Assembly (NCBI RefSeq): GCF_036346105.1
Contig: NZ_CP107811.1
Location: 558,001 to 622,000 of the forward strand
Length of the DNA: 64,000 nucleotides
Reading direction: 5' to 3'
Source: Streptomyces sp. NBC_00539
GTDB lineage: Bacteria; Actinomycetota; Actinomycetes; Streptomycetales; Streptomycetaceae
The stretch's first letter is position 1, and each line of letters starts with the position of its first letter. This document shows, in pieces, positions 28,826-41,640 of this stretch. The position numbers and the translations under genes were made by a program. Under the pieces are notes generated by a model. That model saw nothing but the letters and a program-made list of their open reading frames with translations. It was not told the origin of the DNA and ran no database searches.

Positions 28826-29202
28826 TGCCGCGCCTCCTGCGCTACGTGCCCTGTGGCCGGGCCCTCGGACCGGCCCCCGTCCCCGGCCCCTTCGTCGGTC
28901 AGGGCGGCTTCCTCGAAGGGCCAGCGGGCTCCGCCCGCCTGCGCCGCCTGCTCCCAGGGGTCGCCGAACTCCTCCTGGAGCATTCCGAGCTCGTTGAACA
29001 GCTCCAGCGTCTGGCGGGCGGATTCCTCGTCCAGGCGCTGGAGGGCGAAGCCGACGTGGACGATCGCGTACTCGCCCACCTGGAGGTCCGGCAGGTACTC
29101 CAGGCACACCTCCTTGACCACGCCGCCGAAGTCGACGGTGGCCATGCGGGTGCCGTTCTCCTCCGCGATCTCAAGCACTCTGCCGGGTACCGCCAGGCAC
29201 AT
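28822..29202 (-). CDS. hypC: Hydrogenase maturation chaperone HypC, with C-terminal extension
   Basis: 126 residues. HypC carries the iron centre between HypD and the large subunit. The N-terminal MCLAVPGRV motif with the essential Cys 2 and the OB-fold core ([28 protein letters not shown] in two adjoining pieces) are intact. The usual protein ends near residue 80-90; here about 40 extra residues follow, acidic and Gly-rich ([12 protein letters not shown]). ATG 29202 has GAGGAG upstream. The gene overlaps the end of hypF by 32 nt and the start of hypD by 4 nt. Confidence 0.95.
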
Positions 29203-31558
29203 GGGCTTCTCCTCGCTGTGGGTGTTCCGTGGTGTGGTGCCGGGCCGCGGCCACCATGAGCTGGCCGAGTGCGAGCCCCCCGTCGCCCGGCGGGACCAGG
29301 CGGTGGCGCAGTACGGTGAAGCCCTCCTCGCGCAGCCTTGCGGCGCAGGCCGAGGCCAGCAGGGTGTTGCCGAAGACCCCTCCGGTGAGGGCGACGGTGT
29401 CCAGGCCGTGACGTTCGCGTGCTGCCGCACAGACCGTGGTGACGAGGGAGGCGACCGCGGTGTGGAAGCGGGCCGCGATCACCCGCGGTTCGGTACCCGC
29501 CCTCAGGTCGGCGACGACGGCCCTCAGCACGGGGGCCGGGTCGGCGAGGAGCGGGGCGTCCTCGGCGGGCCGCGCCGGCCCCAGGGTGAAGGCGTAGCCG
29601 GGCTCCGCCCCGGGGGCGGTCAGCGCCGCGGCCTCCAGCTTGATCGCGGCCTGGGCCTCGTAGCCCGCGTGGTGGCAGATGCCCGCCAGCGAGGACACGG
29701 CGTCGAAGAGCCGGCCCATGCTGGAGGTGGGGGCGCAGTTGAGGTCGCGGCTCAACTGGACCCGCAGCAAGCGTAGTTCGTCCGCCGGGCAGGCTTCGAC
29801 GCACGGCAGGTCGCGGGTCCAGTCGATGCCGGCCGCGCGCAGGTGGGAGAGCGCCATGCGGTACGGGCGCCGTACGGCGGCGTCACCGCCGGGCAGGGGC
29901 ACGTAGGCCAGGTGCGCGAAGCGCGTGTAGCCGGCGTAGTCGGCGAGGAGGAACTCGCCGCCCCACACGGCGCCGTCGTCGCCGTAGCCGGTGCCGTCGA
30001 ACGCCACGCCGATGACCCGCCTGCTTCCGGTCAGGCCGTGTTCGGCCATCGCGGAGGCGACGTGCGCGTGGTGGTGCTGGACGCGGAGCAGCGGCCGGGA
30101 GCCCGCGTTGCGGGCGGCCCATCGTCCGGAGCGGTAGCCGGGGTGCCGGTCGGCGGCGAGCAGGGCGGGGGTGACCCCGGTGAGGGCCCCCAGTTGTCCG
30201 GCCGCGCGCTCGAAGGCGTACTGCGTGGCGAGGTCGTCCATGTCCCCGATGTGGGCGGACGGCCAGGCCCGGCGCCCTTCACCGAGGCAGAAGGTGTTCT
30301 TGAGGTCCCCTCCTACGGCCAGCGTCGCCGGTACCGGCACGGGGAGCCCGAGGGGCAGCGGTGCATAGCCGCGCGAGCGCCGCAGGATCAGCGGTTCACC
30401 GTCACAGACGCGCACCACGGAGTCGTCGCAGGGCACGTGGATCGGGCGGTCGTGCGTGAGCCAGGCGTCGGCCAGCGCACCCAGCCGCTCCAGGGCTTCG
30501 GCGTCGTCGGTGACGATGGGTTCGCCCGAGAGGTTGCCGCTGGTCATGACGAGCAGGCAGGGGCCGGGAGGATCGCCGGGCAGGCCGAGCAGCAGGTGGT
30601 GCACGGGCGTGTACGGGAGCATCACGCCGAGGTCGGGGCTGCCCGGGGCGACGCCTTCGGCGACCACCGGGTCGCCTGCGGCCGCGGGCCGGCGGCGCAA
30701 CAGCACGATGGGGCGCAGCGCCCCGGTGAGCAGGGCGCGCTCCTCGGGGCCGGTGGCGACGAGGTCCCCGAGGTCGGCGAGGACGCGGACCATGAGGGCG
30801 AACGGCTTGTTGCCGCGGGCCTTGCGGCTGCGCAGGGTGGCCACGGCCGTCTCGTTGGCGGCGTCGCAGGCGAGGTGGTAGCCGCCGAGGCCCTTGACCG
30901 CGAGGACCGCGCCGTCGGCCAGGAGCCGGCGGGCCGCCTGCACCGGGTCCGTGTCCGGCACCTCGCGCGGCGGTGTCCCGGCCAGCAGTCGCAGCCGGGG
31001 TCCGCAGGCGGGGCAGGCCACGGGCTGGGCGTGGAAGCGGCGGTCGACGGGGTCGCCGTACTCGCGCGCGCAGTCCGGGCACATCGGGAAGGACGCCATG
31101 GTGGTGTGGGCCCGGTCGTACGGCAGCCCGGTGACGATGGTGAAGCGGGGACCGCAGTGGGTGCAGGTGATGAACGGGTGGCGGTGGCGCCGGTCGGCGG
31201 GGTCGGCCAGCTCGGCGAGGCAGTCGTCGCATGTGGCGACGTCCGGGGAGACCAGCGTACGGGCGGGCCCGCCGCTCCTCGAGGCGATGATGGTGAAACC
31301 CGCGCCGCCCGCCAGGGGGACCTCGCAGTGGTCGACGGCGTCGATGAGCGCGAGGGGCGGGGCGTCGCTCGCGAGGCGGTCGCAGAACTCGGTGACCGCC
31401 GCCCGGGCGCCTTCGACCTCCGCGACCACGCCGTCGGGGGTGTTGGTGACGTGTCCGGTCAGGCCGAGCGCGGTGGCGCGGCCGTAGACGTACGGGCGGA
31501 AGCCGACGCCCTGGACCACGCCCCGCACCGTGACCCGGCGGCGCTCGACGGCCTCCAT
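29171..31558 (-). CDS. hypF: Carbamoyltransferase HypF
   Basis: 795 residues, the full multi-domain form. In order: acylphosphatase (RRVTVRGVVQGVGFRPYVYG, residues 6-90), two zinc-finger-like motifs (CDDCLAELADPADRRHRHPF with CTHCGP; CPDCAREYGD with CPACGP), a YrdC-like ATP-binding domain, and a Kae1-like carbamoyltransferase domain (LLRVQHHHAHVASAMAEHGL, GVAFDGTGYGDDGAVWGGEF, LTGGVFGNTLLA). It makes carbamoyl-AMP and transfers the carbamoyl to HypE. ATG 31558 shares one base with the hypB stop (TGATG). Confidence 0.96.
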   Translation of the reverse strand: MEAVERRRVTVRGVVQGVGFRPYVYGRATALGLTGHVTNTPDGVVAEVEGARAAVTEFCDRLASDAPPLALIDAVDHCEVPLAGGAGFTIIASRSGGPARTLVSPDVATCDDCLAELADPADRRHRHPFITCTHCGPRFTIVTGLPYDRAHTTMASFPMCPDCAREYGDPVDRRFHAQPVACPACGPRLRLLAGTPPREVPDTDPVQAARRLLADGAVLAVKGLGGYHLACDAANETAVATLRSRKARGNKPFALMVRVLADLGDLVATGPEERALLTGALRPIVLLRRRPAAAGDPVVAEGVAPGSPDLGVMLPYTPVHHLLLGLPGDPPGPCLLVMTSGNLSGEPIVTDDAEALERLGALADAWLTHDRPIHVPCDDSVVRVCDGEPLILRRSRGYAPLPLGLPVPVPATLAVGGDLKNTFCLGEGRRAWPSAHIGDMDDLATQYAFERAAGQLGALTGVTPALLAADRHPGYRSGRWAARNAGSRPLLRVQHHHAHVASAMAEHGLTGSRRVIGVAFDGTGYGDDGAVWGGEFLLADYAGYTRFAHLAYVPLPGGDAAVRRPYRMALSHLRAAGIDWTRDLPCVEACPADELRLLRVQLSRDLNCAPTSSMGRLFDAVSSLAGICHHAGYEAQAAIKLEAAALTAPGAEPGYAFTLGPARPAEDAPLLADPAPVLRAVVADLRAGTEPRVIAARFHTAVASLVTTVCAAARERHGLDTVALTGGVFGNTLLASACAARLREEGFTVLRHRLVPPGDGGLALGQLMVAAARHHTTEHPQRGEAHVPGGTRQSA

Positions 31559-32373
31559 CAGCGGGCCCGCACCACGGGAGGGTGCGCGCGGGCGTGGCCG
31601 GCGTCGTGGTCGTGGTCGTGATCGTGGCCGGGGCCGTGATCGTGATCATGGCTGTGGCTGTGGCCGTGGCCGGGGTGTCCCTGGTCCCGTGCGGCCATCA
31701 CCGGCGTGTGCACCGGGTCGCCGTCGGCGACGGCGAGCGCCCGCCCCAGCAGGGTGCCGAGGCCCTCACCCGTGCGGGCGGAGGTGAGCACCACCTCCAC
31801 ACCGGGGTTGACCTGCTGGACGTTGGCCCGGAAGGCGGCCTCGTCGAATCCGACGGCCTCGGCGATGTCGGTCTTGGTGACCACCACCAGGTGGGCGAGC
31901 CCGAAGGCGGTCGGGTACTTGAGCGGCTTGTCCTCGCCCTCGGTGACGGAGGCCAGGGCGACCCTCAGGGACTCCCCGAGGTCGTAGGAGGCCGGGCACA
32001 CCAGGTTGCCGACGTTCTCCACGAAGAGCAGCCGGGTGTCCTCGGGCAGCCACCCGTCCAGGTGCCGGCCCAGCATCGCGGCCTCCAGGTGGCACAGCCC
32101 GTCGGTGAGGACCTGCTTCACGGGGACGCCGGAACGGCCCAGGCGCAGTGCGTCGTTCTCGGTGGCGAGGTCGGCGGTGAGGGCGGCGACGCTCACGCCG
32201 CGCTCGCGGGCGAGGCCGAGCTCGCGCTCGAGCAGGGCCGTCTTCCCGCTGCCGGGGCTGGAGAGCAGGTTGACGACGGTCGTGCCGCGCGCGGTGAGTG
32301 CGAGGCGCAGGGTCTGCGCGGCCGCCTCGTTCTTGGCCAGTACCGCCTGTTGCAGGTCGACCACTCGGCACAT
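31558..32373 (-). CDS. hypB: Nickel-insertion GTPase HypB with C-terminal His-rich tail
   Basis: 271 residues. HypB is a SIMIBI-class GTPase that, with HypA, delivers Ni to the large subunit. P-loop SSPGSGKT (38-45), LTADLATENDA, ENVGNLVCPASYDLGE and TKTDIAE are all present. The N-terminus has only MCRVVDL, lacking the CxxCGC nickel site of many HypB proteins. Residues 232-264 carry 13 histidines (GHPGHGHSHSHDHDHGPGHD and onward). In other HypB proteins such a His cluster lies near the N-terminus; here it is at the C-terminus. Probably Ni storage. hypA ends 3 bp upstream. Confidence 0.96.
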   Translation of the reverse strand: MCRVVDLQQAVLAKNEAAAQTLRLALTARGTTVVNLLSSPGSGKTALLERELGLARERGVSVAALTADLATENDALRLGRSGVPVKQVLTDGLCHLEAAMLGRHLDGWLPEDTRLLFVENVGNLVCPASYDLGESLRVALASVTEGEDKPLKYPTAFGLAHLVVVTKTDIAEAVGFDEAAFRANVQQVNPGVEVVLTSARTGEGLGTLLGRALAVADGDPVHTPVMAARDQGHPGHGHSHSHDHDHGPGHDHDHDHDAGHARAHPPVVRAR

Positions 32374-32376
32374 GGT

Positions 32377-32790
32377 TCAGCGCTCCTCGGGGATCGGTTG
32401 GCGGGTGTGCGCGGGGGCGTGGCCCGGGGCGTCCCGCGGTTCGTCGTCCCAGGTGACGTCGAGGATCCGCAGCTCGCGCCCCGAGACCAGTTCGGTGCCG
32501 GTGGCGCCGCCGCAGGCGGGACAGCACAGGTCGGGTGGCATGCCGACGGCCCAGTCACCCCTACAGGAGGTGCAGCGGGCGCGGGCCGGGACCGCTTCGG
32601 CCGTGAGGGCGGCGCCTTCCAGAACCGTCCCGGCGCAGGCCAGTTCGAAGCAGAAGGCGAGGGCGTCGGGGACCACTCCGGCCAGTTCCCCCACCTGGAG
32701 CCGCACGGCGCTCACCGTGTGCGCGCCGGCGGCTGCGGCCGCTTCCTCCACCTGGCTCACCACGGCCATGGCGATCGACATCTCGTGCAT
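32377..32790 (-). CDS. hypA: Nickel-insertion protein HypA
   Basis: 137 residues. The N-terminal MHEMSIA supplies the nickel-binding site (Met 1, His 2), and two CxxC pairs (C73/C76 in CTSC, C90/C93 in CPAC) bind structural zinc. The C-terminal 30 residues (DDEPRDAPGHAPAHTRQPIP) extend past the usual 115-residue core and contain two His, perhaps a further Ni site. It is separated by 140 bp from the microprotein gene before it, the only long gap inside the downstream half of the cluster. Confidence 0.95.
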   Translation of the reverse strand: MHEMSIAMAVVSQVEEAAAAAGAHTVSAVRLQVGELAGVVPDALAFCFELACAGTVLEGAALTAEAVPARARCTSCRGDWAVGMPPDLCCPACGGATGTELVSGRELRILDVTWDDEPRDAPGHAPAHTRQPIPEER

Positions 32791-32930: not shown

Positions 32931-33035
32931 TCACATGCTGCGGATGCGCAGGTAGCGTTTGAGGTCGGGGGCGATCTGCACCGCCACCGCCAGCAGGGCG
33001 GCGAGGGTCACGCCGCACAGGACGGCCTTCTTCAT
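32931..33035 (-). CDS. 34-residue microprotein of the hydrogenase cluster (DUF6893-like)
   Basis: A tiny protein, MKKAVLCGVTLAALLAVAVQ at the start and PDLKRYLRIRSM at the end: one hydrophobic helix (about residues 5-25) followed by a basic tail. It could be a single-pass membrane peptide. Evidence that it is real: an excellent ribosome binding site (GGAGGAGA) and a 4-nt overlap with the protease stop, in line with the five overlaps upstream. It resembles a small actinobacterial family that I recall as DUF6893. A possible role is tethering the soluble hydrogenase to the membrane (inference). Confidence 0.78.
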   Translation of the reverse strand: MKKAVLCGVTLAALLAVAVQIAPDLKRYLRIRSM

Positions 33036-33550
33036 CGCGTTGTCTCCTCCGTCAGGGCCGGCTCCGCGGCCGGATCGTGTTGCACGAGTTCCAGGAGCAT
33101 CCGTACGGCCTCCGGCACCGCCGCGGCCACCGGATCGCTCAGGCCGATGCCCTCCTCGACGGTCTGCGGTTCGCAGCCGACGACCAGCGTGCGGCGGGGC
33201 GGGGTGCCGCCCGTGCCGGCGCACAGGGTGTCGAGCAGGGCCAGCACGGCGTCCGGGGACATGTGGTGGCCGTCCAGGACGGCGCCGCCCGTGATCGCAC
33301 CCGGTCCTTCGACCTCGATCAGGTAGAGCGTGCCGGGTGCGCCGCCGCGCGCGGTGGCGTCGACCAGGACGAGGGTGTCGTAGCCGTCGAGGAGCTGGTA
33401 GGCGAGGTGGACGCCGCGGACGCCGAAGTCCACCGCCTCGACGTGCCCGGGCAGCGGCTGCGCGGCCAGTCGGCGTACCGTCTCGACGCCGAACCCGTCG
33501 TCGCCGAGGAACACGTTGCCGATCCCGGCGATCAGCGTCCCGCCGCTCAC
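33032..33550 (-). CDS. [NiFe] hydrogenase maturation endopeptidase
   Basis: 172 residues of the HyaD/HybD/HycI family, which removes the C-terminal peptide of the large subunit once Ni is inserted. The three metal-contacting positions are recognisable: D17/D18 in FLGDDGFG (Glu16 in E. coli HybD), D64 in VLVDATARGG (Asp62), and H95/H96 in DGHHMSPD (His93). The first is Asp rather than Glu, as in several group 1 proteases. It overlaps both neighbours by 4 nt. Its substrate would be the C-terminus of the large subunit at 36891. Confidence 0.92.
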   Translation of the reverse strand: MSGGTLIAGIGNVFLGDDGFGVETVRRLAAQPLPGHVEAVDFGVRGVHLAYQLLDGYDTLVLVDATARGGAPGTLYLIEVEGPGAITGGAVLDGHHMSPDAVLALLDTLCAGTGGTPPRRTLVVGCEPQTVEEGIGLSDPVAAAVPEAVRMLLELVQHDPAAEPALTEETTR

Positions 33551-34986
33551 CGCTCCTCCAGGGGTGCGGCGGCGTCCAGGGGTGCGACCTCGTCGGGCTG
33601 GAAGTAGAGGAACCGGCCCTGCTCGCGCCGGATGTCGGCGCCGGGGTCACCCTCGACGGTGACCGCGAGGTGCACGCCGCCGTCGACGTCGTGCAGGACG
33701 GCTTCCACGTGGGCGGCGCGACCCTGGACGAACAGGTCCTGGGCGTCGGTGCGCCGCAGTCCGGGCCGCAGCAGGACGCGGCTGCCCACGCCCACCGGGA
33801 CCCCGTCGACGAGGACGTGGTCGGGGGCCGGCCCGGCGGTTTCCCCGTGCGCCGGGTCCCACCACGGGGTGCCGGGCTTGAACACCGCCCGCCCGTCGAG
33901 GTCTTCCAGGCCGGTGGGAGCGTCCGGCGGCACACCGGGGTCGGTGATCTCCCGCAGGGCCCGCACCGCGCCGTGCAGGCGTTCGAGTACTTCCGGCGGC
34001 ATGGATTCGGCGAGGTCGATCACGGCGGCGGCGCGGGGGTCCGTACCGCGCGCCTCCCGCTTCTCCTGCTCGGTCAGGGCCGCGGTGCGCAGGGCGAGGA
34101 TCTCGTCGATCTCGGTGGCGTCGTACATCGCGCCGATGCTCTCGGGGGCGATCCCGGGGTGGTCCTCCAGGATGATCGGGGAGGACAGGACCACGTCGGC
34201 GCGGCCGGGTTCCGCGACGAGGACGGGCCAGGTGTGGCGGTTGACACAGCCGGCGGTGGCGCCCTTGGCCCACTCGGGCGGGTCGGTCATCGACAAGAAC
34301 CGGCCCGAGTCGAGGCCGAGCAGGAGGTGGGCGGCGACCAGGGAGCGGGACAGGGCCGCGTCGCGGCCGGTGCCCGCGTCCCCCGGCTGCCAGCCGCTGG
34401 TGTTCTCCACGACAGCGGTGAGCTTGAAGGCCCGGTAGGCGCAGTCGAGTTCACTCGCGCGCAGACGCAGGACGCCGCTGATCGCCTCGGTCCGCCGCAC
34501 CAGGCGTCCGACGGCCTTGCCGTCGGCGTCGAGGACGGGTTCGCTCTCCTCGCCGGCGGGGCGGGTGAAGGGCAGGCTCACGCCGTCGCCCTCCAGTTCC
34601 GCAACACCGACGGTGAGCTCGACGCGCTCCTCGGTGCCCTCGTCCCAGGGGACGAGGACGCGGTCGGCCAGGTGCAGTTCCTCCACGTCCGTGAACGTGC
34701 CGTCGGACGCCGCCTGTTGGACGGTACGCCGCTGCGCGTGCAGGAAACGGAGTTCGACGGCGAGGGTGGCGTCCCCCTTGGGTTCCATCAGCAGCTCGGT
34801 CTGCTGGAGGCAGTGCTCGCCCTGCTCGGGCGCCCAGGCCGGGGGCACGAGCACGCCGAACTGCCAGCGCAGCCGGTTCTTGGCGGCCGAGGCCCGGTAG
34901 GGGTAGAGCACGTACCCCTCGAAGAGGACCGCGTCGGCCACTTGGCGGGCGGTCTCGAAGCGCGCGTCGAGCGCGGCGGTCGTCAT
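33547..34986 (-). CDS. Conserved hydrogenase-cluster protein, unknown fold, 479 residues
   Basis: I recognise no domain. The protein is soluble (no signal peptide, no membrane segment), begins MTTAALDARFETARQVADAV, followed by EGYVLYPYRASAAKNRLRWQ, and looks alpha/beta with many Trp and charged residues. Pieces such as AGCVNRHTWPVLV and SSPIILEDHPGIAPES look conserved in style but are not linked to a known activity. It overlaps DUF6084-like and protease genes by 4 nt on both sides, inside the chain of coupled genes, so it is probably needed for hydrogenase assembly, electron transfer or activity. One of the best targets for experimental work in the window. Confidence 0.85.
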   Translation of the reverse strand: MTTAALDARFETARQVADAVLFEGYVLYPYRASAAKNRLRWQFGVLVPPAWAPEQGEHCLQQTELLMEPKGDATLAVELRFLHAQRRTVQQAASDGTFTDVEELHLADRVLVPWDEGTEERVELTVGVAELEGDGVSLPFTRPAGEESEPVLDADGKAVGRLVRRTEAISGVLRLRASELDCAYRAFKLTAVVENTSGWQPGDAGTGRDAALSRSLVAAHLLLGLDSGRFLSMTDPPEWAKGATAGCVNRHTWPVLVAEPGRADVVLSSPIILEDHPGIAPESIGAMYDATEIDEILALRTAALTEQEKREARGTDPRAAAVIDLAESMPPEVLERLHGAVRALREITDPGVPPDAPTGLEDLDGRAVFKPGTPWWDPAHGETAGPAPDHVLVDGVPVGVGSRVLLRPGLRRTDAQDLFVQGRAAHVEAVLHDVDGGVHLAVTVEGDPGADIRREQGRFLYFQPDEVAPLDAAAPLEER

Positions 34987-35711
34987 GGCGCCGTCCTCTC
35001 TCCGGCTCGGGGCAGCAGTCCCGCGCGCAGCCGCTCGGGCGGGGAGGGCGGGGACGGGCGGGAGGCTGTGGCAGCTGTGGCGGCGGCCCCGGCCTCGGCG
35101 AGCAGGGCGCGTACGGTCGCCTCCCAGGAGGCCAGCGCGTGCCGGGAGCGGTAGGCGAGCAGTTCGTCCATGGCGTCACGGGGCAGCCGCAGCCAGCCGC
35201 AGCCGGGGAAGTGCTGCTCGATCATCTCCTGCCACACCCGCACCGGCATCCGGTACGCCGCTTCGCGGTCCCACGGGACGGGTTCGACGTGGAAGCCGCC
35301 GGCGCCGGTGAAGGCGGTGCCGGAGAACAGCATGAGCAGGGGTGCCTCGCCATCGTCCAGGGCGGTGAAGTAGCGGGTCGCGGCGATGTCCATGTCATAG
35401 GTGCAGGGCACGGCCATGTCGATTTCCGTGGAGCCCGTGAAGCTCGGCACCATCAGCGTCACCTGGGCGAACTGCACGGGCTGGAGGGTGTTGCCCCAGC
35501 GGGAGCGCTCGCCGAACAGGTCGGCCAGGCCGTCCGCCTCCGCCTGCCCGTAGCCGCGGCGGGCCGGTTCGATCCGGATCTGGCAGCGCAGGGCCAGTGC
35601 GTGCACCCGGGTGTCCCCGGAGGCGGTGATGGCCAGCCGGAAGACGAGGGTGGGACCGGCGGCGTACGGATCCGCGCGCACGCCGGTGCAGGTGAAGCCG
35701 AACTCCGTCAT
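34983..35711 (-). CDS. Hydrogenase-cluster protein, DUF6084-like
   Basis: 242 residues. The first part (MTEFGFTCTGVRADPYAAG, then TLVFRLAITASGD and RCQIRIEPARRGYG) is beta-rich and resembles an immunoglobulin-like sandwich; later segments are WGNTLQPVQFAQVTLMVPSF and TYDMDIAATRYFTAL. The C-terminus is Pro/Arg-rich and probably disordered. I recall this as DUF6084, found beside group 1h hydrogenases, not verified. Overlaps both neighbours by 4 nt. No cofactor motif is visible. Confidence 0.8.
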   Translation of the reverse strand: MTEFGFTCTGVRADPYAAGPTLVFRLAITASGDTRVHALALRCQIRIEPARRGYGQAEADGLADLFGERSRWGNTLQPVQFAQVTLMVPSFTGSTEIDMAVPCTYDMDIAATRYFTALDDGEAPLLMLFSGTAFTGAGGFHVEPVPWDREAAYRMPVRVWQEMIEQHFPGCGWLRLPRDAMDELLAYRSRHALASWEATVRALLAEAGAAATAATASRPSPPSPPERLRAGLLPRAGERTAP

Positions 35712-36376
35712 GGCGCGGCCTCCGCCGCCGGGACCTTGGCACGGCGTTCGACGCCGTCGAAGAACGAGTCGAGCGCGGCGCGGGCCTCGGCGCCGCCGTC
35801 GAAGCCCTGCCACAGCAGGCGCATCCGTCCCACCAGTTCGTAGCAGATGTCGATCGGGACGAGGTAGCAGTCGGTGCGTCCCTCGCCGCGGCGCAGCAGC
35901 AGAGCCTCGACGTCCGGTTGCAGCAGTGCGGCCAGGGCGCTGTCGCCGAGCGCCGCCTGCCAGGTGGCGGGGTCGAGTTCGCTCTCGGTGGCTCCGGCCG
36001 GACTCGGGTAGAGCGCGACGAGCCGGTCCAGCGCCGCGTTGCGGAAGAAGAACGCGACGCCGACGGGGATCTGGAGGAGTTCCCAGGCGCCGTCGTCGAG
36101 TCGGTGGCCGGGGTCGCGGAGGTAGCGGGCGGGGACGGCGCGGTAGCGGCCGGTGGCGGCGCCCGGCCGGTCGAACAGCAGGGCGCAGGCCGTGCAGGCG
36201 CACACCAGCGCCCGCTTCTCGGTCTCGACCAGGTGGCGGTGGCCGTCCTCGGCGACGGTCACCCCGCACAGTTCGCAGGTCTGCGGCCGGGGTCCCCGGG
36301 GTACGGCGAACCGGCGCAGGCCGGACGGGCCCGCCGTCCGCGCGGACGGCGGGGCCCAGGCGCGTGGCGCGCTCAC
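35708..36376 (-). CDS. Cys-rich hydrogenase-cluster protein, DUF5947-like
   Basis: 222 residues with a cysteine cluster in the first third: C34-x-x-C37, then H46/H48, then C59-x-C61-x-x-C64 (in PQTCELCGVT and VCACTACALLF). This could bind zinc or an iron-sulphur cluster, so an electron-carrying or scaffold role is possible. The rest (RAVPARYLRD, ELLQIPVGVAFFFRN, DCYLVPIDICYELVGRMRLL) is alpha/beta and unknown. I recall the family as DUF5947. It starts at GTG 36376, overlapping the NifU-like gene stop (GTGA). Confidence 0.8.
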   Translation of the reverse strand: MSAPRAWAPPSARTAGPSGLRRFAVPRGPRPQTCELCGVTVAEDGHRHLVETEKRALVCACTACALLFDRPGAATGRYRAVPARYLRDPGHRLDDGAWELLQIPVGVAFFFRNAALDRLVALYPSPAGATESELDPATWQAALGDSALAALLQPDVEALLLRRGEGRTDCYLVPIDICYELVGRMRLLWQGFDGGAEARAALDSFFDGVERRAKVPAAEAAP

Positions 36377-36894
36377 GGCACCCGGACCGGGGCCTGCGGG
36401 CGGGTGCCGATCTGGAGCAGCGGCTGTGGCGGCGCCCCGGCCGGCTCCAGTTCGACGGTGGTCACCTCGGGGGCGAAGGAGGCCACTGCGGCCTCGGCGG
36501 CCTGCCGGACGGCGTCCCCGGTGCTGCCGCAGCCGCAGCCGCCGCCGGAAGTGGCCCGCAGGCGCAGTGTGCCGGAGGCCTCGTCGAACCCGAGGAGTTC
36601 CACCGGCTCGCCCAGGGCGTCCAGGGCGCGGGCGATCCTGGTGTGCACGTCCTCGGGGTGCAGGTCGTGCAGGGCCAGCAGGCTGGAGACGAGTTCGTCG
36701 TCCAGCAGCGGGGCGAGGGCATCGGCGTCCAGCCGTGAGGTGATCCGGGCGAGCCCGCAGCCGTAGAAGTCCATCAGGACGCGCACCAGTTCCTCGGCGG
36801 CGGCGCAGACTTCCCGGTCACCGGTGTCCGCCAGCCGGCCGAGGACCTCCTCGACCCGGCGGCCCGTCCGGAGGGAGTCGGCGGGGGCGCTCAT
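36373..36894 (-). CDS. NifU-like putative Fe-S protein following the large subunit
   Basis: 173 residues. A helical N-terminal half (residues 10-100) ends in DLHPEDVHTRIARALDALGE. The C-terminal half resembles the NifU C-terminal domain but carries C120-x-C122 (SGGGCGCGSTGDAV) instead of the usual CxxC. C30 and C46 are extra candidates as ligands. In mycobacterial group 1h loci an iron-sulphur protein gene (hhyE) follows the large subunit and is needed for H2 oxidation; this gene holds the same position, so it may pass electrons from the hydrogenase. Overlaps the large subunit gene by 4 nt. Confidence 0.8.
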   Translation of the reverse strand: MSAPADSLRTGRRVEEVLGRLADTGDREVCAAAEELVRVLMDFYGCGLARITSRLDADALAPLLDDELVSSLLALHDLHPEDVHTRIARALDALGEPVELLGFDEASGTLRLRATSGGGCGCGSTGDAVRQAAEAAVASFAPEVTTVELEPAGAPPQPLLQIGTRPQAPVRVP

Positions 36895-38669
36895 CCGCCC
36901 AGTCCGCTCAGGCCGGTGGGGACGTGCATCTGCTTGACGGTCTGGCCGTTGCCGACGTACATGTGGACGCCGCAGGGCAGGCAGGGGTCGAAGCTGCGCA
37001 CGGCGCGCATGATGTCGATGCCCTTGAAGTTCTCCGGGGAGTTCTCCTCGAAGATCGGCGTGTTCTGGACGGCGTCCTCGTAGGGGCCGGGTGTGCCGAA
37101 GGTGTCGCGGGTGCTGGCGTTCCACGGGGTCGGCGGGTAGGGGTGGTAGTTGGCGATCTTGCCGTCGCGGATCACCATGTGGTGGGAGAGGACGCCCCGT
37201 ACGGCCTCGGTGAAACCGACTCCGATGGACTCGTCGGGGACTTCGAACTTCTCCCAGGTCTGGGTGCGTCCGGCGCGGACCTCCTCCAGGCCCATCTCGG
37301 CGCAGTGCAGGGCGATGGCGGCGGCGTAGGCCTGGAAGTACGTGCGGGCGCGGTTGCGCTCCAGCGCGTTGCTCCACTTGGGGATCTTCCACTCGAAGGT
37401 GGTCTCCGGCTTCGTCATCGTCCGGGGCAGGTTGATGATGACGCTGTGACCGGTCGCCTTGACGTAGCCGACGTCGACGAGCCCGGACAGGGCCGTGGAC
37501 CACAGGCGGGCGATGGGGCCGCCGCCGGTGTCGAGGGCCAGGTGGTCCTTGCCGTCGAACCAGCGCGGTGACATCACCCAGCTGTACTTGCCGTCGAAGT
37601 CGCGCCTCTGCGGGGCGGGGATGGTGTGCTGGTTCCAGGGGTGGCGGGGGTCGACCGGGTTGCCGAGCGGGTCGCGGGTGACGAACTGCTCCTGGCCGGC
37701 CCAGTCGTCGTAGTACGAGCTGCCCAGCAGGATGCGGATGCCCAGGTTGATCTCGGTGAGGTCGTTGGTGACGAGTTTGCCGTCGACGATCACGCCTGGG
37801 GTGACGAACATCTTCCGGCCCCAGTCGGACATGTTGGCGTAGGTGAAGTCGCAGTACTCGGGGTCGTTGAGGGCGCCCCAGCAGCCGAGCAGCACGCGGC
37901 GCCGGCCGACCTCCTCGTAGCCGGGCAGGGCCTCGTAGAAGAAGTCGAAGAGGTCGTCGTGGAGCGGGACGACGCGCTTCATGAACTCGACGTACTTCAT
38001 GAGGCGGCTCATGTAGTCCGTGAAGAGCTGGACCGAGGCGATGGTGCCGACGCCGCCCGGGTACAGGGTGGAGGGGTGTACGTGGCGGCCCTCCATCAGG
38101 CAGAACATCTCGCGCGTGTAGCGGCTGACCTGGAGGGCCTCGCGGTAGAACTCGCCCTCGATGGGGTTGAGGGAGCGCATGATGTCGGCGATGGTGCGGT
38201 AACCGTGGTCGCCGGCGTGCGGTGCCTCGGTGCGCTCGGCCAGTTCCAGGACGCCGGGGTTGGTCTCGCGGACCATCTTCTCGCAGTAGTCGACCCCGAC
38301 CAGGTTCTCCTGGAAGATGTTGTGGTCGAACATGTACTCCGCCGACTCCCCGAGGTTGATGATCCACTCGGCGAGGTGGGGCGGCTTCACCCCGTAGGCC
38401 ATGTTCTGCGTGTAGACGGAACAGGTGGCGTGGTTGTCGCCGCAGATCCCGCAGATGCGGCTGGTGATGAAGTGGGCGTCGCGGGGGTCCTTGCCGCGCA
38501 TGAAGACGCTGTAGCCGCGGAAGACCGACGAGGTGCTGTAGCACTCCGCCACGCGCTTCTGCTTGAAGTCGATCTTCGTGTGGATCCCGAGACTGCCCAC
38601 GATCCGGGTGATCGGATCCCAGGCCATCTCCACCAAGCCGTCGCCGGACGCCTTCGTCTTCGGTGCCAT
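36891..38669 (-). CDS. hhyL: [NiFe] hydrogenase large subunit, group 1h type
   Basis: 592 residues holding the Ni-Fe(CN)2CO site that splits H2. Ni ligands: C73 and C76 in RICGICGDNH (L1, 71-80), C563 and C566 in DPCLPCGVH (L2, 561-569). Cleavage after H569 would remove 23 residues (from MYVGNG to the end), matching the protease gene in the cluster. The long insert-bearing sequence with HPSTLYPGGVG and the L1/L2 forms fit group 1h, the high-affinity enzymes that consume atmospheric H2 in streptomycetes. The Shine-Dalgarno is weak, and the small subunit gene ends 73 bp upstream. Confidence 0.96.
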   Translation of the reverse strand: MAPKTKASGDGLVEMAWDPITRIVGSLGIHTKIDFKQKRVAECYSTSSVFRGYSVFMRGKDPRDAHFITSRICGICGDNHATCSVYTQNMAYGVKPPHLAEWIINLGESAEYMFDHNIFQENLVGVDYCEKMVRETNPGVLELAERTEAPHAGDHGYRTIADIMRSLNPIEGEFYREALQVSRYTREMFCLMEGRHVHPSTLYPGGVGTIASVQLFTDYMSRLMKYVEFMKRVVPLHDDLFDFFYEALPGYEEVGRRRVLLGCWGALNDPEYCDFTYANMSDWGRKMFVTPGVIVDGKLVTNDLTEINLGIRILLGSSYYDDWAGQEQFVTRDPLGNPVDPRHPWNQHTIPAPQRRDFDGKYSWVMSPRWFDGKDHLALDTGGGPIARLWSTALSGLVDVGYVKATGHSVIINLPRTMTKPETTFEWKIPKWSNALERNRARTYFQAYAAAIALHCAEMGLEEVRAGRTQTWEKFEVPDESIGVGFTEAVRGVLSHHMVIRDGKIANYHPYPPTPWNASTRDTFGTPGPYEDAVQNTPIFEENSPENFKGIDIMRAVRSFDPCLPCGVHMYVGNGQTVKQMHVPTGLSGLGG

Positions 38670-38742: not shown

Positions 38743-39798
38743 TCACCAGGGCGGCCGGTAGCCGGTGGTCAGCGTCTCGCCGGTGTGCCGCCACTTGGGT
38801 TCGCGGTCCACGGTGTGCGCCGTCATCTGGCGGAGCTTGCGGACGACGGCGCCGTACGCGCCGCTGGCCTTGCTGGACACCTTGGCGCCGGGCGGCTCGT
38901 CCATGAACGGCATGAACTTGTCCGGGAAGCCGGGCATGGTGCAGGCGATGCAGATGCCGCCGACGTTCGGGCAGCCGCCGATGCCGTTCATCCAGCCGCG
39001 CTTGGGCACGTTGCACTTGACGACGGGGCCCCAGCAGCCCAGCTTGACCAGGCACTGCGGCGAGTCGTAGGTGTGCGCGAACTGGCCCTGCTCGTAGTAG
39101 CCGGCCCGGTCGCAGCCCTCGTGGACGGTGGCGCCGAACAGCCAGGTCGGGCGCAGTTTGTCGTCGAGCGGGATCATCGGCGCGGAGCCGGCCGCCTGGT
39201 AGAGCAGGTAGGTGAGCGTCTCGGAGAAGTTGTCCGGCTGGATGGGGCAGCCCGGCACGCACACGATCGGGATGCCGGCCTTGGACTTCCAGTCCCAGCC
39301 CAGGTAGTCCGGGACGCCCATGGCGCCGGTGGGGTTGCCCTCCATCGCGTGGATGCCGCCGTACGTGGCGCAGGTGCCGATGGCGACGACCGCGAGGGCC
39401 TTGGGCGCCAGCCGGTCGATCCACTCGCTGGTCGTGATGGGCTGGCCCGTCTCGGGGTTGTCCCCGAAGCCGCACCAGTAGCCGTCGGCCTTGATCTTCT
39501 CGTTGGGGATGGATCCCTCGATCACGAGGACGAAGGGGTCGATCTCACCGCGCTCGCCCTTGAAGAACCACTCGATGAACGTGTCCGCGCCGCCGACGGG
39601 ACCGCACTCGAAGTCGATCAGGGGCCAGTGCACCGCGATCTTGGGCAGACCCGGCAGTACGCCCATCACGATCTCTTCGATGCTCGGCTGCATCGCCGCC
39701 GTCAGGGACACCGAGTCGCCGTCGCAGCTCAGCCCCGCGTTGATCCAGAGGATGTGGATGGGGGGGTCCTCTACCGTGCTCGGCGTTTGTGCATCCAT
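38743..39798 (-). CDS. hhyS: [NiFe] hydrogenase small subunit, group 1h type
   Basis: 351 residues carrying three iron-sulphur clusters for electron exit. The proximal-cluster motif reads LSC25-D-G-D28-S, so the second cysteine of the usual CxxC is an aspartate. This 3Cys-1Asp coordination is known from the oxygen-insensitive group 1h enzyme of Ralstonia eutropha. Distal and medial ligands are visible in VHEGCDRAG, SPQCLVKLGCWGPVVKC, GGCPNVGGICIACTMPGFPD. There is no Tat signal peptide and no C-terminal membrane helix, so the enzyme should be cytoplasmic. ATG 39798 has AAGGAGG upstream. Confidence 0.96.
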   Translation of the reverse strand: MDAQTPSTVEDPPIHILWINAGLSCDGDSVSLTAAMQPSIEEIVMGVLPGLPKIAVHWPLIDFECGPVGGADTFIEWFFKGERGEIDPFVLVIEGSIPNEKIKADGYWCGFGDNPETGQPITTSEWIDRLAPKALAVVAIGTCATYGGIHAMEGNPTGAMGVPDYLGWDWKSKAGIPIVCVPGCPIQPDNFSETLTYLLYQAAGSAPMIPLDDKLRPTWLFGATVHEGCDRAGYYEQGQFAHTYDSPQCLVKLGCWGPVVKCNVPKRGWMNGIGGCPNVGGICIACTMPGFPDKFMPFMDEPPGAKVSSKASGAYGAVVRKLRQMTAHTVDREPKWRHTGETLTTGYRPPW

Positions 39799-39870: not shown

Positions 39871-41640
39871 TCACCCTTCTTCGTAACAGGGGCCGGCGGG
39901 CGGTGCGCTGTCTTGTACGGCCAGTCCGGTGACCCGGTCCGGCGAACGGCCGTGGCCGGCCGGGACCGCACGGACCAGGTGCGGCGGGGTGGCGGCGGCC
40001 GGCTCCTTGCGGACGAAGGCACGGCGCAGGGCGTGGTACGGGGCCTGCGGGTCGAAGAAGGTGGCCCGCATCCGGGCCAGCTCCGCCTCGCGGTAGGCGG
40101 CCAGCGGGGTTTCGGCCTCGTCCCGCTCCCGCCGCGCCTTCTTCGCGGCGATCCGGGACGGGGCGGTGGGGGACGCGGCCAGCAGGGCGGCCAGCCGGGC
40201 CGTTTCGCCGGCGAACTCCCCGGGCGCGCAGGGCACCGTACGGTCGACCAGGCCCAGCGCGGCCGCGGCGGCGGCGCTCAGCGGCAGGGCGTCGGTGGTG
40301 AGCCGCTCGGCGACGGCTGCCCCGACGCGGCGGGGCAGCGTGTAGGTCCAGTACTCGGAGCCGTAGAGGCCCATCAGCCGGTAGTGCGGGTTGAGGACGA
40401 CGCCCGAGCGGCACCAGACCTCGTCGGCCGCCAGTGCCAGCATCGCGCCTCCGGCGGCGGCGTTGCCGCCGAGGGCCGCGACGACGAGACGGTCCGTAGT
40501 GGTCAGGACGGCCTCGACGAGGTCGTCCATCGCCGTGATGTTCGCCCAGGACTCGGCGGCCGGGTCGGCGGCCGCCTCGATGACGCCGAGGTGGATGCCG
40601 TTGGAGAAGAAATCGCGGCCACCGCCGAGGACCAGGACGGAGGTGGGGCGCTCACAAGCGGCCCGGTAGGCGTCCAGCAGGCGCCGGCACCGGTCGGTGC
40701 TCATCGCGCCGCCGGGGAAGGAGAACGACAGGAAACCGGCCGCTCCCTCCTCCCGGTAGGTGATGTCGGACCAGGTACGGCGCGGGGGGCCGTCGTGCGG
40801 CGGCGCGGGGTCCTGCGGCAGCGGGGGCAGCCGGTCGCCGAGCGCCACGGTGGCGGGCAGCTTCACCGGGACGGGCTCCCCCGGCGCCCGGCAGGCCCGC
40901 AGCTCCGGGATCCACACGGCGCCGTCGGTGGTCGCCCGGCAGACCGCGCCCGCGCGGGTGGCCAGCAGTTCGCCCGGGCGGCCGCGCAGCCGGTCCTCCC
41001 GGTGGCCTCCGTGCAGGAACCAGACCCCGCCGAGCAGTTCGTCCCGTACTCCGGGCTGGGAGTCGGCGGCCCGCAGGACGCGCAGGACGCGGTCGGTGGA
41101 GTCCGCCGCCCAGTCGATGCGGCGCTCGTCCTGACGCAAGTAGGGCCGGGTGTGGTGGGTGGTCTGCGGGGTGGGGACGTACGTCCCCGAGGCGAAGCGT
41201 TCGACGGCGAGCAGGACGGCCCGCAGAGCCGCGTCGGCGATCTCCCCGCGGTAGAGGTCGCTCTTGGCCAGCTCGGGTACGGGGCATTCGGCGAAGGCCC
41301 AGACGTCGCCGGCGTCCATCTCGGCGTCCGCCTGCAGCACGGTCACGCCCCAGTGCGTGGCGCCCTCCTGGACGGCCCGGTCGAGCGAGGAGGGGCCGCG
41401 GTCCCCGACCGGCCCCGGGTGGACGATCAGACAGGTGTGGGTGGACCACACCTCGCGGGGCACGGCCGTCTTGAGCATCGGCGCGATGATCAGGTCGGGC
41501 CGGTGGCGATGCGTGACGTCGGTCAGGGAGCCGCCGGGCAGGGCGAGTTCGACGGCCACGCGGTGACCGTGGTCGCGCAGCTCGGCGTGGACGCGCTGCG
41601 TCAGGCTGTTGAACGCGCTCGCGACGAGCAGGATGCGCAC
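39871..41640 (-). CDS. hypX: HypX, oxic CO-ligand synthesis protein
   Basis: 589 residues, first gene of the cluster. The N-terminal domain resembles formyl-transferases (VRILLVASAFNSLTQRVHAE; LIVHPGPVGDRGPSSLDRAV; ADAEMDAGDVWAF). The C-terminal domain is an enoyl-CoA hydratase/isomerase fold (VLVLGGGRDFFSNGIHLGVI; ALGGNAAAGGAMLALAADE). HypX converts the formyl group of formyl-tetrahydrofolate to CO through formyl-CoA, supplying the Fe-bound CO under air, and is typical of oxygen-tolerant hydrogenases. GTG 41640 (preceded by GGGAG) is preferred; the open frame continues 242 codons upstream but overlaps the divergent NmrA gene. hhyS starts 72 bp downstream. Confidence 0.93.
   Translation of the reverse strand: MRILLVASAFNSLTQRVHAELRDHGHRVAVELALPGGSLTDVTHRHRPDLIIAPMLKTAVPREVWSTHTCLIVHPGPVGDRGPSSLDRAVQEGATHWGVTVLQADAEMDAGDVWAFAECPVPELAKSDLYRGEIADAALRAVLLAVERFASGTYVPTPQTTHHTRPYLRQDERRIDWAADSTDRVLRVLRAADSQPGVRDELLGGVWFLHGGHREDRLRGRPGELLATRAGAVCRATTDGAVWIPELRACRAPGEPVPVKLPATVALGDRLPPLPQDPAPPHDGPPRRTWSDITYREEGAAGFLSFSFPGGAMSTDRCRRLLDAYRAACERPTSVLVLGGGRDFFSNGIHLGVIEAAADPAAESWANITAMDDLVEAVLTTTDRLVVAALGGNAAAGGAMLALAADEVWCRSGVVLNPHYRLMGLYGSEYWTYTLPRRVGAAVAERLTTDALPLSAAAAAALGLVDRTVPCAPGEFAGETARLAALLAASPTAPSRIAAKKARRERDEAETPLAAYREAELARMRATFFDPQAPYHALRRAFVRKEPAAATPPHLVRAVPAGHGRSPDRVTGLAVQDSAPPAGPCYEEG

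Follow-up and report, generated by a model that had tools for sequence, protein, structure and literature searches.

Do genes that are strung to the large subunit gene of a hydrogenase by an unbroken run of start/stop overlaps also belong to that hydrogenase? The question is raised by a locus of Streptomyces sp. NBC_00539 within a stretch of 64,000 nucleotides (nt) of contig NZ_CP107811.1 (positions 558,001 to 622,000), hereafter called the window, where seven consecutive minus-strand genes run from 38669 to 32931. They encode, in this order, the large subunit HhyL, a short form of the NifU-like protein HhyE, a DUF5947 protein, a DUF6084 protein, a fifth protein that we call g5, a hydrogenase maturation protease and a DUF6893 microprotein. 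The original prediction, made from the letters of the window, held that the overlaps imply tight translational coupling, the uncharacterised proteins probably being made in step with the large subunit, that these proteins may be part of the enzyme or of its assembly line, and that the system is under-described. We find that the operon is, judged from its sequence, that of a group 1h (also called group 5 or actinobacterial) [NiFe]-hydrogenase (Hhy) with an accessory gene run, and that DUF5947, DUF6084, g5 and the microprotein are kept in group 1h clusters and are missing at the nearest other hydrogenase loci sampled. The part most worth following is the last and smallest gene of the operon, encoding DUF6893.

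The assignment to group 1h is carried by the two subunits. HhyL (36891..38669; 592 residues) matches Pfam NiFeSe_Hases and contains both motifs of the group, L1 TSRICGICGDNH and L2 SFDPCLPCGVH, which are described as group 1h markers (PMC5364354). Its closest solved relative is HofG of C. necator (PDB 5aa5, E=0, 1088 bits), the next best match scoring 163 bits, and the residues past CGVH would form the C-terminal extension that the protease removes. The small subunit gene hhyS (38743..39798, minus strand; 351 residues; Pfam NiFe_hyd_SSU_C and Oxidored_q6) lies outside the overlap chain, and its product reads LSCDGDSV at what is probably the place where other small subunits have CxxC. A replacement of Cys by Asp at an iron-sulfur cluster is reported for group 1h small subunits (PMC5364354).

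The gene order is widely conserved. With a profile of g5 we gathered 80 named loci, the best 80 of 521 relatives, which together with the S. cattleyicolor locus make 81. The order from hhyS through HhyL, HhyE, DUF5947, DUF6084 and g5 to the protease is complete in 54 of the 80, the remainder being cut at contig ends or rearranged, and hhyL is on the locus in 71, the other nine being contigs of 13.5 kilobases (kb) or less. The loci span Pseudomonadota, Verrucomicrobiota, Planctomycetota, Chloroflexota, Acidobacteriota, Eremiobacterota, Dormibacterota and Actinomycetota as well as one myxobacterium. As far as the protease, the annotations of C. necator pHG1, M. intracellulare, Methylocystis parvus, Kitasatospora and S. 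fungicidicus also give the genes in this order. The C. necator hydrogenase (AH) shares this order, has a large subunit 78% identical to that of the window and is accompanied by DUF6893, whereas its hyp genes follow in a different order; in print its hofKG cluster contains PHG066-069, listed as of unknown function, and the protease PHG070 (PMC4377017). The cluster is thus already known in print while the functions of its genes are not, and the system is under-described only in the latter respect, since both PHG066-PHG070 and a deletion of HhyE have been published.

The unknown genes follow this hydrogenase and not hydrogenases in general. Among 396 sampled Actinomycetota genomes, 41 scored as carrying a 1h-type large subunit (at least 65% identity, fragments included), while g5 was found in 39, DUF6084 in 37 and DUF5947 in 38; within the 41 the corresponding numbers were 35, 33 and 36. 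The four genomes with g5 and no large subunit (G246, G273, G347 and G428) are all drafts of 120 to 710 contigs, and G273 is the only one of the 29 genomes with other hydrogenases only in which any of the three was found. On plasmids, the 12 records with g5 are the same 12 that have HhyL, and DUF6084 is present in 10 of them, the exceptions being two S. cattleyicolor records. As a control we used ten Actinomycetota loci (L177-L186) of the nearest other [NiFe]-hydrogenases, with a large subunit 39-45% identical to HhyL and a small subunit. Eight of the ten have a maturation protease, some two protease-like genes, and seven an HhyE-like gene, but DUF5947, DUF6084, g5 and DUF6893 were found in none. 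These loci had at one point been labelled group 2a (Huc), and the label was dropped when the member tested proved nearer to the C. necator 1h HofG (519 bits) than to Huc (121 bits); the control therefore represents the nearest other hydrogenases, with Huc loci forming no part of it. Huc (with HucE and HucM) is likewise an atmospheric-H2 hydrogenase and has a partner related to HhyE (PMC10017518, PMC6883350), but the window large subunit is far from it (119 bits). In this sense the claim that the unknown proteins go with the enzyme holds, on the strength of genome tracking.

The exceptions are instructive. The S. cattleyicolor-type clade is without DUF6084. One planctomycete locus has hhyL, g5 and the protease, and neither DUF5947 nor DUF6084 was found in the genome. 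The Methylacidiphilum-like genome G498 has hhyS, hhyL, the protease, g5 and a divergent DUF6084, and genome-wide searches for HhyE and DUF5947 found neither. These exceptions make g5 and the protease the most constant accessory pair, in a set gathered with g5 as bait. M. fumariolicum SolV is stated in one paper to lack genes for the hypothetical proteins of this operon (PMC7174314); such an absence from Methylacidiphilum is not borne out in G498, although the paper may mean other proteins. The published SolV cluster comprises hhyS, hhyL and the protease followed after 4.6 kb by hypB and a nickel transporter (PMC5364354). G498 fits this in layout, the match being one of layout and not of name, which suggests that SolV does encode two of the operon's hypothetical proteins. 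On the G498 contig (L158:8103-17957) the microprotein stands right before hhyS, the divergent DUF6084, g5 and protease genes are on the opposite strand, and hypB-like and nickel-transporter-like genes, named by reading, are 4.6 kb away.

What, then, do the overlaps add? All six junctions of the run are overlaps of exactly 4 nt and all seven frames are open, just as predicted. In gene order from hhyL to the microprotein they read ATGA (36891/36894), GTGA (36373/36376), ATGA (35708/35711), ATGA (34983/34986), GTGA (33547/33550) and ATGA (33032/33035). As background we sampled 20 stretches of 20 kb (400 kb) from the same genome, in which 319 genes were called; 184 pairs of neighbours share a strand, 65 of them close. 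A spacing of -4 was strictly present in 24 pairs and a start at -4 was possible in 31; no other single spacing is as common in the sampled genome, and a lone 4-nt overlap is therefore nothing unusual. A close pair thus has this spacing about half of the time, and at that rate six in a row have a chance of about 1 in 80 per operon of such length. The run is therefore uncommon but not extraordinary, and it is conservation that exceeds chance.

Junctions were also counted in other genomes. Among 25 relatives the overlap was -4 at hhyL-HhyE in 14, HhyE-DUF5947 in 22, DUF5947-DUF6084 in 20, DUF6084-g5 in 22 and g5-protease in 20, and at protease-microprotein in 5 of 12. In the larger set of 81 loci, a pair being counted if its two genes lay near each other on the same strand, two junctions stand out, DUF6084-g5 with -4 in 70 of 77 loci across many phyla and g5-protease with 60 of 78, and both have the same spacing in G498, where the stretch has 40% G+C. 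The other junctions vary more: hhyL-HhyE has -4 in 34 of 68 loci and HhyE-DUF5947 in 44 of 70, while at DUF5947-DUF6084 it occurs in 28 of 76, a value of -8 being common as well, and 73 of these pairs are spaced within 30 nt. On pHG1 the junctions are -1, -4, -8, -4 and -4, compared with -4 throughout in the window. The conserved overlaps show a coupling of DUF6084, g5 and the protease. The step from overlap to subunit is weak, however. The junction of the two sure subunits, hhyS-hhyL, a gap of 73 nt in the window, is -4 in only 3 of 65 loci, while the maturation protease, which going by its family is not a subunit, sits in the chain; overlap thus does not mark subunits, and neither co-stoichiometry nor membership of the enzyme can be read from it.

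The microprotein (32931..33035; 34 residues; Pfam E=4.5e-13) consists of one predicted hydrophobic helix and the C-terminal tail PDLKRYLRIRSM, and scores 49.4 bits against DUF6893 (PF21833), whose cut-off is 24.6. This cut-off is passed by six of ten DUF6893 samples, and by five of nine from outside Actinomycetota. With a profile built up from the protein of the window, the microprotein was detected at E<=1e-3 in 66 of the 80 named loci and in none of the 20 background stretches, the matches including C. necator (L011:10754-10855), M. intracellulare, Methylocystis, Chloroflexota and G498; in C. necator the gene is missing from the pHG1 gene table used, which is incomplete. The tail is almost invariant. 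Among 106 sequences chosen by the model at E<=0.1, counted from the C-terminus, Y stands at -6 in 106, R at -7 in 104 and D or E at -10 in 103, with a terminal M in 105 and membrane-like hydropathy in 98. A rule combining this motif with hydrophobicity picks out 66 of the 80 named loci, 23 of the 25 relatives and nine of ten loci of a Chloroflexota/Verrucomicrobiota sample, but none of the ten loci of other hydrogenases and none of the 20 background stretches; the motif alone occurred in 0 of 26171 shuffled tails. In 57 of the 80 named loci and 19 of the 25 relatives the gene starts within 250 nt downstream of the protease. It lies between g5 and the protease in one named locus and four relatives, M. 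intracellulare being one of these five, and directly precedes hhyS in G498. In 22 streptomycete-type and eight Burkholderiales sequences, the second codon position is the least and the third the most often substituted, the pattern expected of a translated gene.

Co-occurrence points the same way. Of 61 relatives, 20 have DUF6893 over the cut-off, all with a 1h cluster; 18 of these are among the 19 genomes with DUF6084, and the other two (G045 and G051) have the S. cattleyicolor-type 1h cluster. In a further 80 genomes, chosen by hydrogenase content, DUF6893 passed the cut-off in 22 of 33 with a 1h hydrogenase, in one of the 28 whose hydrogenases are all of other types (G326, where it lies at a contig edge) and in two of 19 without a large-subunit match. 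One of these two (G207) has it beside a decayed 1h cluster, and the other (G271) is a match of 26.9 bits inside a frame of 795 residues, probably by chance. The 11 1h genomes without DUF6893 over the cut-off include three of S. cattleyicolor type and others with cut or divergent clusters. For the genomes seen, we reject the idea that DUF6893 is a general membrane microprotein. The decayed cluster of G207 (L190:8765-9900) retains pieces of hhyS and g5, next to a protease and a microprotein that look intact. New here are the tie between DUF6893 and 1h hydrogenases and the occurrence of the family beyond Actinomycetota. The open-access literature yielded no paper on a 1h-linked microprotein of this kind, subscription papers being largely outside the search, and one paper there, apparently on aurodox biosynthesis, names DUF5947, DUF6084 or DUF6893.

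The second and third genes of the run bear on how electrons leave the enzyme. The window HhyE (36373..36894; 173 residues), recognised by alignment and by a Pfam NifU match below cut-off (E=0.0043), has C-x-C (CGC) in place of CxxC and ends after the NifU-like part, without the C-terminal four-cysteine domain. It is thus a truncated form, the full form having both a NifU-like CxxC and a C-terminal CxxC pair. In 100 HhyE sequences the CxxC is kept in all 26 long forms, but of the 74 short forms only 15 have both cysteines in these columns, 37 have one and 22 none; in 24 of the 37 a pair of cysteines lies nearby, almost always as the C-x-C that the window protein also has, and six Burkholderiales short forms have no cysteine at all. 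DUF5947 (35708..36376; 222 residues, GTG start; PF19372, E=3.6e-73, 245.4 bits against a curated cut-off of 25) is in this respect the opposite, with C34, C37, H46, H48, C59, C61 and C64 invariant in 100 of 100 sequences as putative metal ligands. Should the module in general have a cluster-bearing electron carrier, DUF5947 would be a better candidate for it than HhyE. The cysteine losses in short HhyE also reduce the range of possible electron acceptors. Two other ideas about DUF5947 were dropped: short HhyE and DUF5947 are not the split halves of a long HhyE, because M. intracellulare has a long HhyE (301 residues) as well as a separate DUF5947, and a rubredoxin-HybE (HupI/HupJ) fusion gained no profile match to HoxR or HoxT.

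DUF6084 (34983..35711; 242 residues; PF19562, E=2.2e-97) scores 325.2 bits against a curated cut-off of 25. The g5 protein (33547..34986; 479 residues) has no Pfam or NCBIfam match, and its predicted structure (mean predicted local distance difference test score, pLDDT, 84.5) has a beta-rich N-terminal part with the motif LxEGYxLYPYR..KN and an SH3-like C-terminal domain, for which a PetP-like fold is one possibility. This domain has a frame of its own in L094, L095, L159-L165 and L167 (Acidobacteriota, Chloroflexota) and in some Actinomycetota genomes. Comparison with hhalign of HhyE, DUF5947, DUF6084 and g5 with HoxO, HoxQ, HoxR, HoxT/HybE and HoxV, each as a single C. necator sequence, gave nothing above 5% probability, and profile comparison with Hyp proteins gave no match for g5. 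The protease (33032..33550; 172 residues, GTG start; TIGR00072, E=2.7e-34; Pfam HycI) is of the HycI/HybD type, and it may share with g5 a role in finishing the large subunit.

The reading that we prefer, to which we give a probability of about 50%, is that of a 1h operon whose coupled accessory genes do three jobs: maturation, electron exit or cofactor supply, and membrane docking. In this scheme g5, with DUF6084, and the HycI-type protease would hold and finish the large subunit, the three genes being coupled because their products presumably act on this one client. Short HhyE and DUF5947 would form a changeable electron-exit or cofactor unit with its constant metal site on DUF5947 and not on HhyE. 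DUF6893 would insert one helix into the cytoplasmic membrane, and its fixed tail (D/E-x2-R-Y-x5-M-COOH) would dock the otherwise soluble enzyme there, beside the quinone pool. A need for such docking is suggested by M. fumariolicum Hyd-1h, which has neither a transmembrane helix nor a signal peptide and yet is membrane-associated via a partner described as unidentified, its affinity dropping on release from the membrane (PMC7174314). One helix, a cationic conserved C-terminus and retention beside 1h hydrogenases across phyla make DUF6893 a candidate docking partner, and it may be the piece that holds Hhy at the membrane. A large part of the soil sink for atmospheric H2 is attributed to group 1h hydrogenases (PMC7174314, PMC8027828), and for the membrane targeting and electron hand-over of these soluble-looking enzymes a conserved candidate of 34 residues, short enough for easy deletion or tagging, makes the question directly testable. 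A bolder version, possible but with the odds somewhat against it, makes DUF6893 a third, membrane-embedded 1h subunit, a one-helix tail-anchor that brings the enzyme to the quinone pool and in this way sets its apparent affinity for trace H2, g5 and the protease a group-specific maturation pair, and DUF5947 the general electron-exit site.

Other explanations have to be weighed against this reading. The overlaps could be mere genome compaction, a coupling without functional meaning, and the frequency of -4 in the sampled genome together with the seldom overlapped hhyS-hhyL pair fits that view; we hold it to be somewhat unlikely in the face of a DUF6084-g5 overlap retained over many phyla and in G498 with its 40% G+C. 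Alternatively the whole run could be an assembly line, in which HhyE, DUF5947, DUF6084, g5 and the microprotein each serve as a chaperone or in maturation and stay outside the working enzyme. A maturation protease inside the chain, adjoining g5 in most loci, speaks for this, as does the solved C. necator enzyme (5aa5), the core of which we take to be two subunits. In M. smegmatis the NifU-like HhyE (MSMEG_2718), encoded downstream of hhyL, is required: on its deletion, activity was lost even when an artificial electron acceptor was offered, and an assembly factor or scaffold is among the roles that the authors consider (PMC6883350). A one-helix membrane protein with an invariant C-terminus would, however, be an odd maturation factor, and G498 has the 1h subunits without HhyE and DUF5947, which leaves a pure assembly line unlikely in our estimate.

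Another view, put forward for M. smegmatis, makes HhyE the immediate electron acceptor in group 1h hydrogenases; the same deletion and the CxxC motifs that HhyE carries speak for it (PMC6883350). The CxxC retained by every long form and the HhyE-like genes beside the nearest other hydrogenases agree with it, but the cysteine losses among the short forms, complete in the six from Burkholderiales, do not, and truncated forms are mentioned in PMC6883350 itself; the window HhyE differs from that of M. smegmatis in being short, in lacking the C-terminal CxxC pair and in having C-x-C for CxxC. We find this view very unlikely. The microprotein, for its part, might not be an anchor but a small subunit that stabilises or regulates a different membrane partner, such as a quinone reductase or a transporter. 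Many one-helix microproteins tune larger membrane complexes, and the variable position of this one, after the protease, between g5 and the protease or before hhyS, would suit such a role. No constant integral membrane partner was seen among the profiled cluster genes, no systematic search having been made, and the idea appears rather improbable to us.

A number of points qualify the results above or count against the three-job reading itself. The codon-usage gene caller placed the DUF5947 start 110 nt further in, although the start at -4 is the annotated one in Kitasatospora and S. fungicidicus. The counting rule takes -4 wherever a start codon exists there and is thus biased toward it (the protease start annotated at +62 in Methylocystis L013 was nevertheless scored as -4), and many of the 81 loci are related to one another and so are not independent. 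The microprotein profile was retrained on its own matches, which inflates E-values and favours the motif, and the motif rule was written after the motif had been seen. Five named loci with ample flank are without a convincing microprotein (L066, L091, L104, L105 and L133), five score weakly (L087, L099, L106, L107 and L115; E 0.0056 to 1.5), and no significant match was obtained in S. cattleyicolor L014 or in its kin L187-L189. DUF6084 is missing from the S. cattleyicolor-type clade, Minicystis and one planctomycete and is therefore not essential everywhere, and G498 does without DUF5947 despite its 1h subunits. The maturation role suggested for g5 is drawn from its gene neighbourhood. Finally, the C. 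necator enzyme is described as cytoplasmic and of low affinity (PMC7174314), and C. necator carries the microprotein (L011:10754-10855).

Several relatives have noteworthy neighbours. On pSCAT of S. cattleyicolor the 1h cluster is rearranged to protease-hypA-hypB-g5-hemerythrin-hhyS-hhyL-HhyE-DUF5947 and has no DUF6084; a hemerythrin-domain gene (L014:7273-7818) separates g5 from hhyS there, and hypA and hypB are named by reading. On a M. intracellulare plasmid (L012:15883-19752) the annotation places NADH-quinone oxidoreductase genes, for subunits A to F, after the 1h cluster, a possible electron route. In Edaphobacter lichenicola (L094:480 and 4151) there is a second hhyS-like gene upstream of the cluster, and the microprotein is 8 kb downstream of the protease. 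In the window itself the minus strand continues beyond the run with hypA, a nickel metallochaperone gene (32377..32790; Pfam HypA, E=2.2e-32; TIGR00100), with hypB, encoding the GTPase for nickel incorporation with a His-rich tail (31558..32373; TIGR00073, E=6.9e-67), and with an open frame (29171..31558) that we take to be hypF-like from its position as annotated in relatives. Upstream of hhyS lies another minus-strand coding frame (39871-41640), presumably HypX-like from its look, with formyltransferase and enoyl-CoA-hydratase parts.

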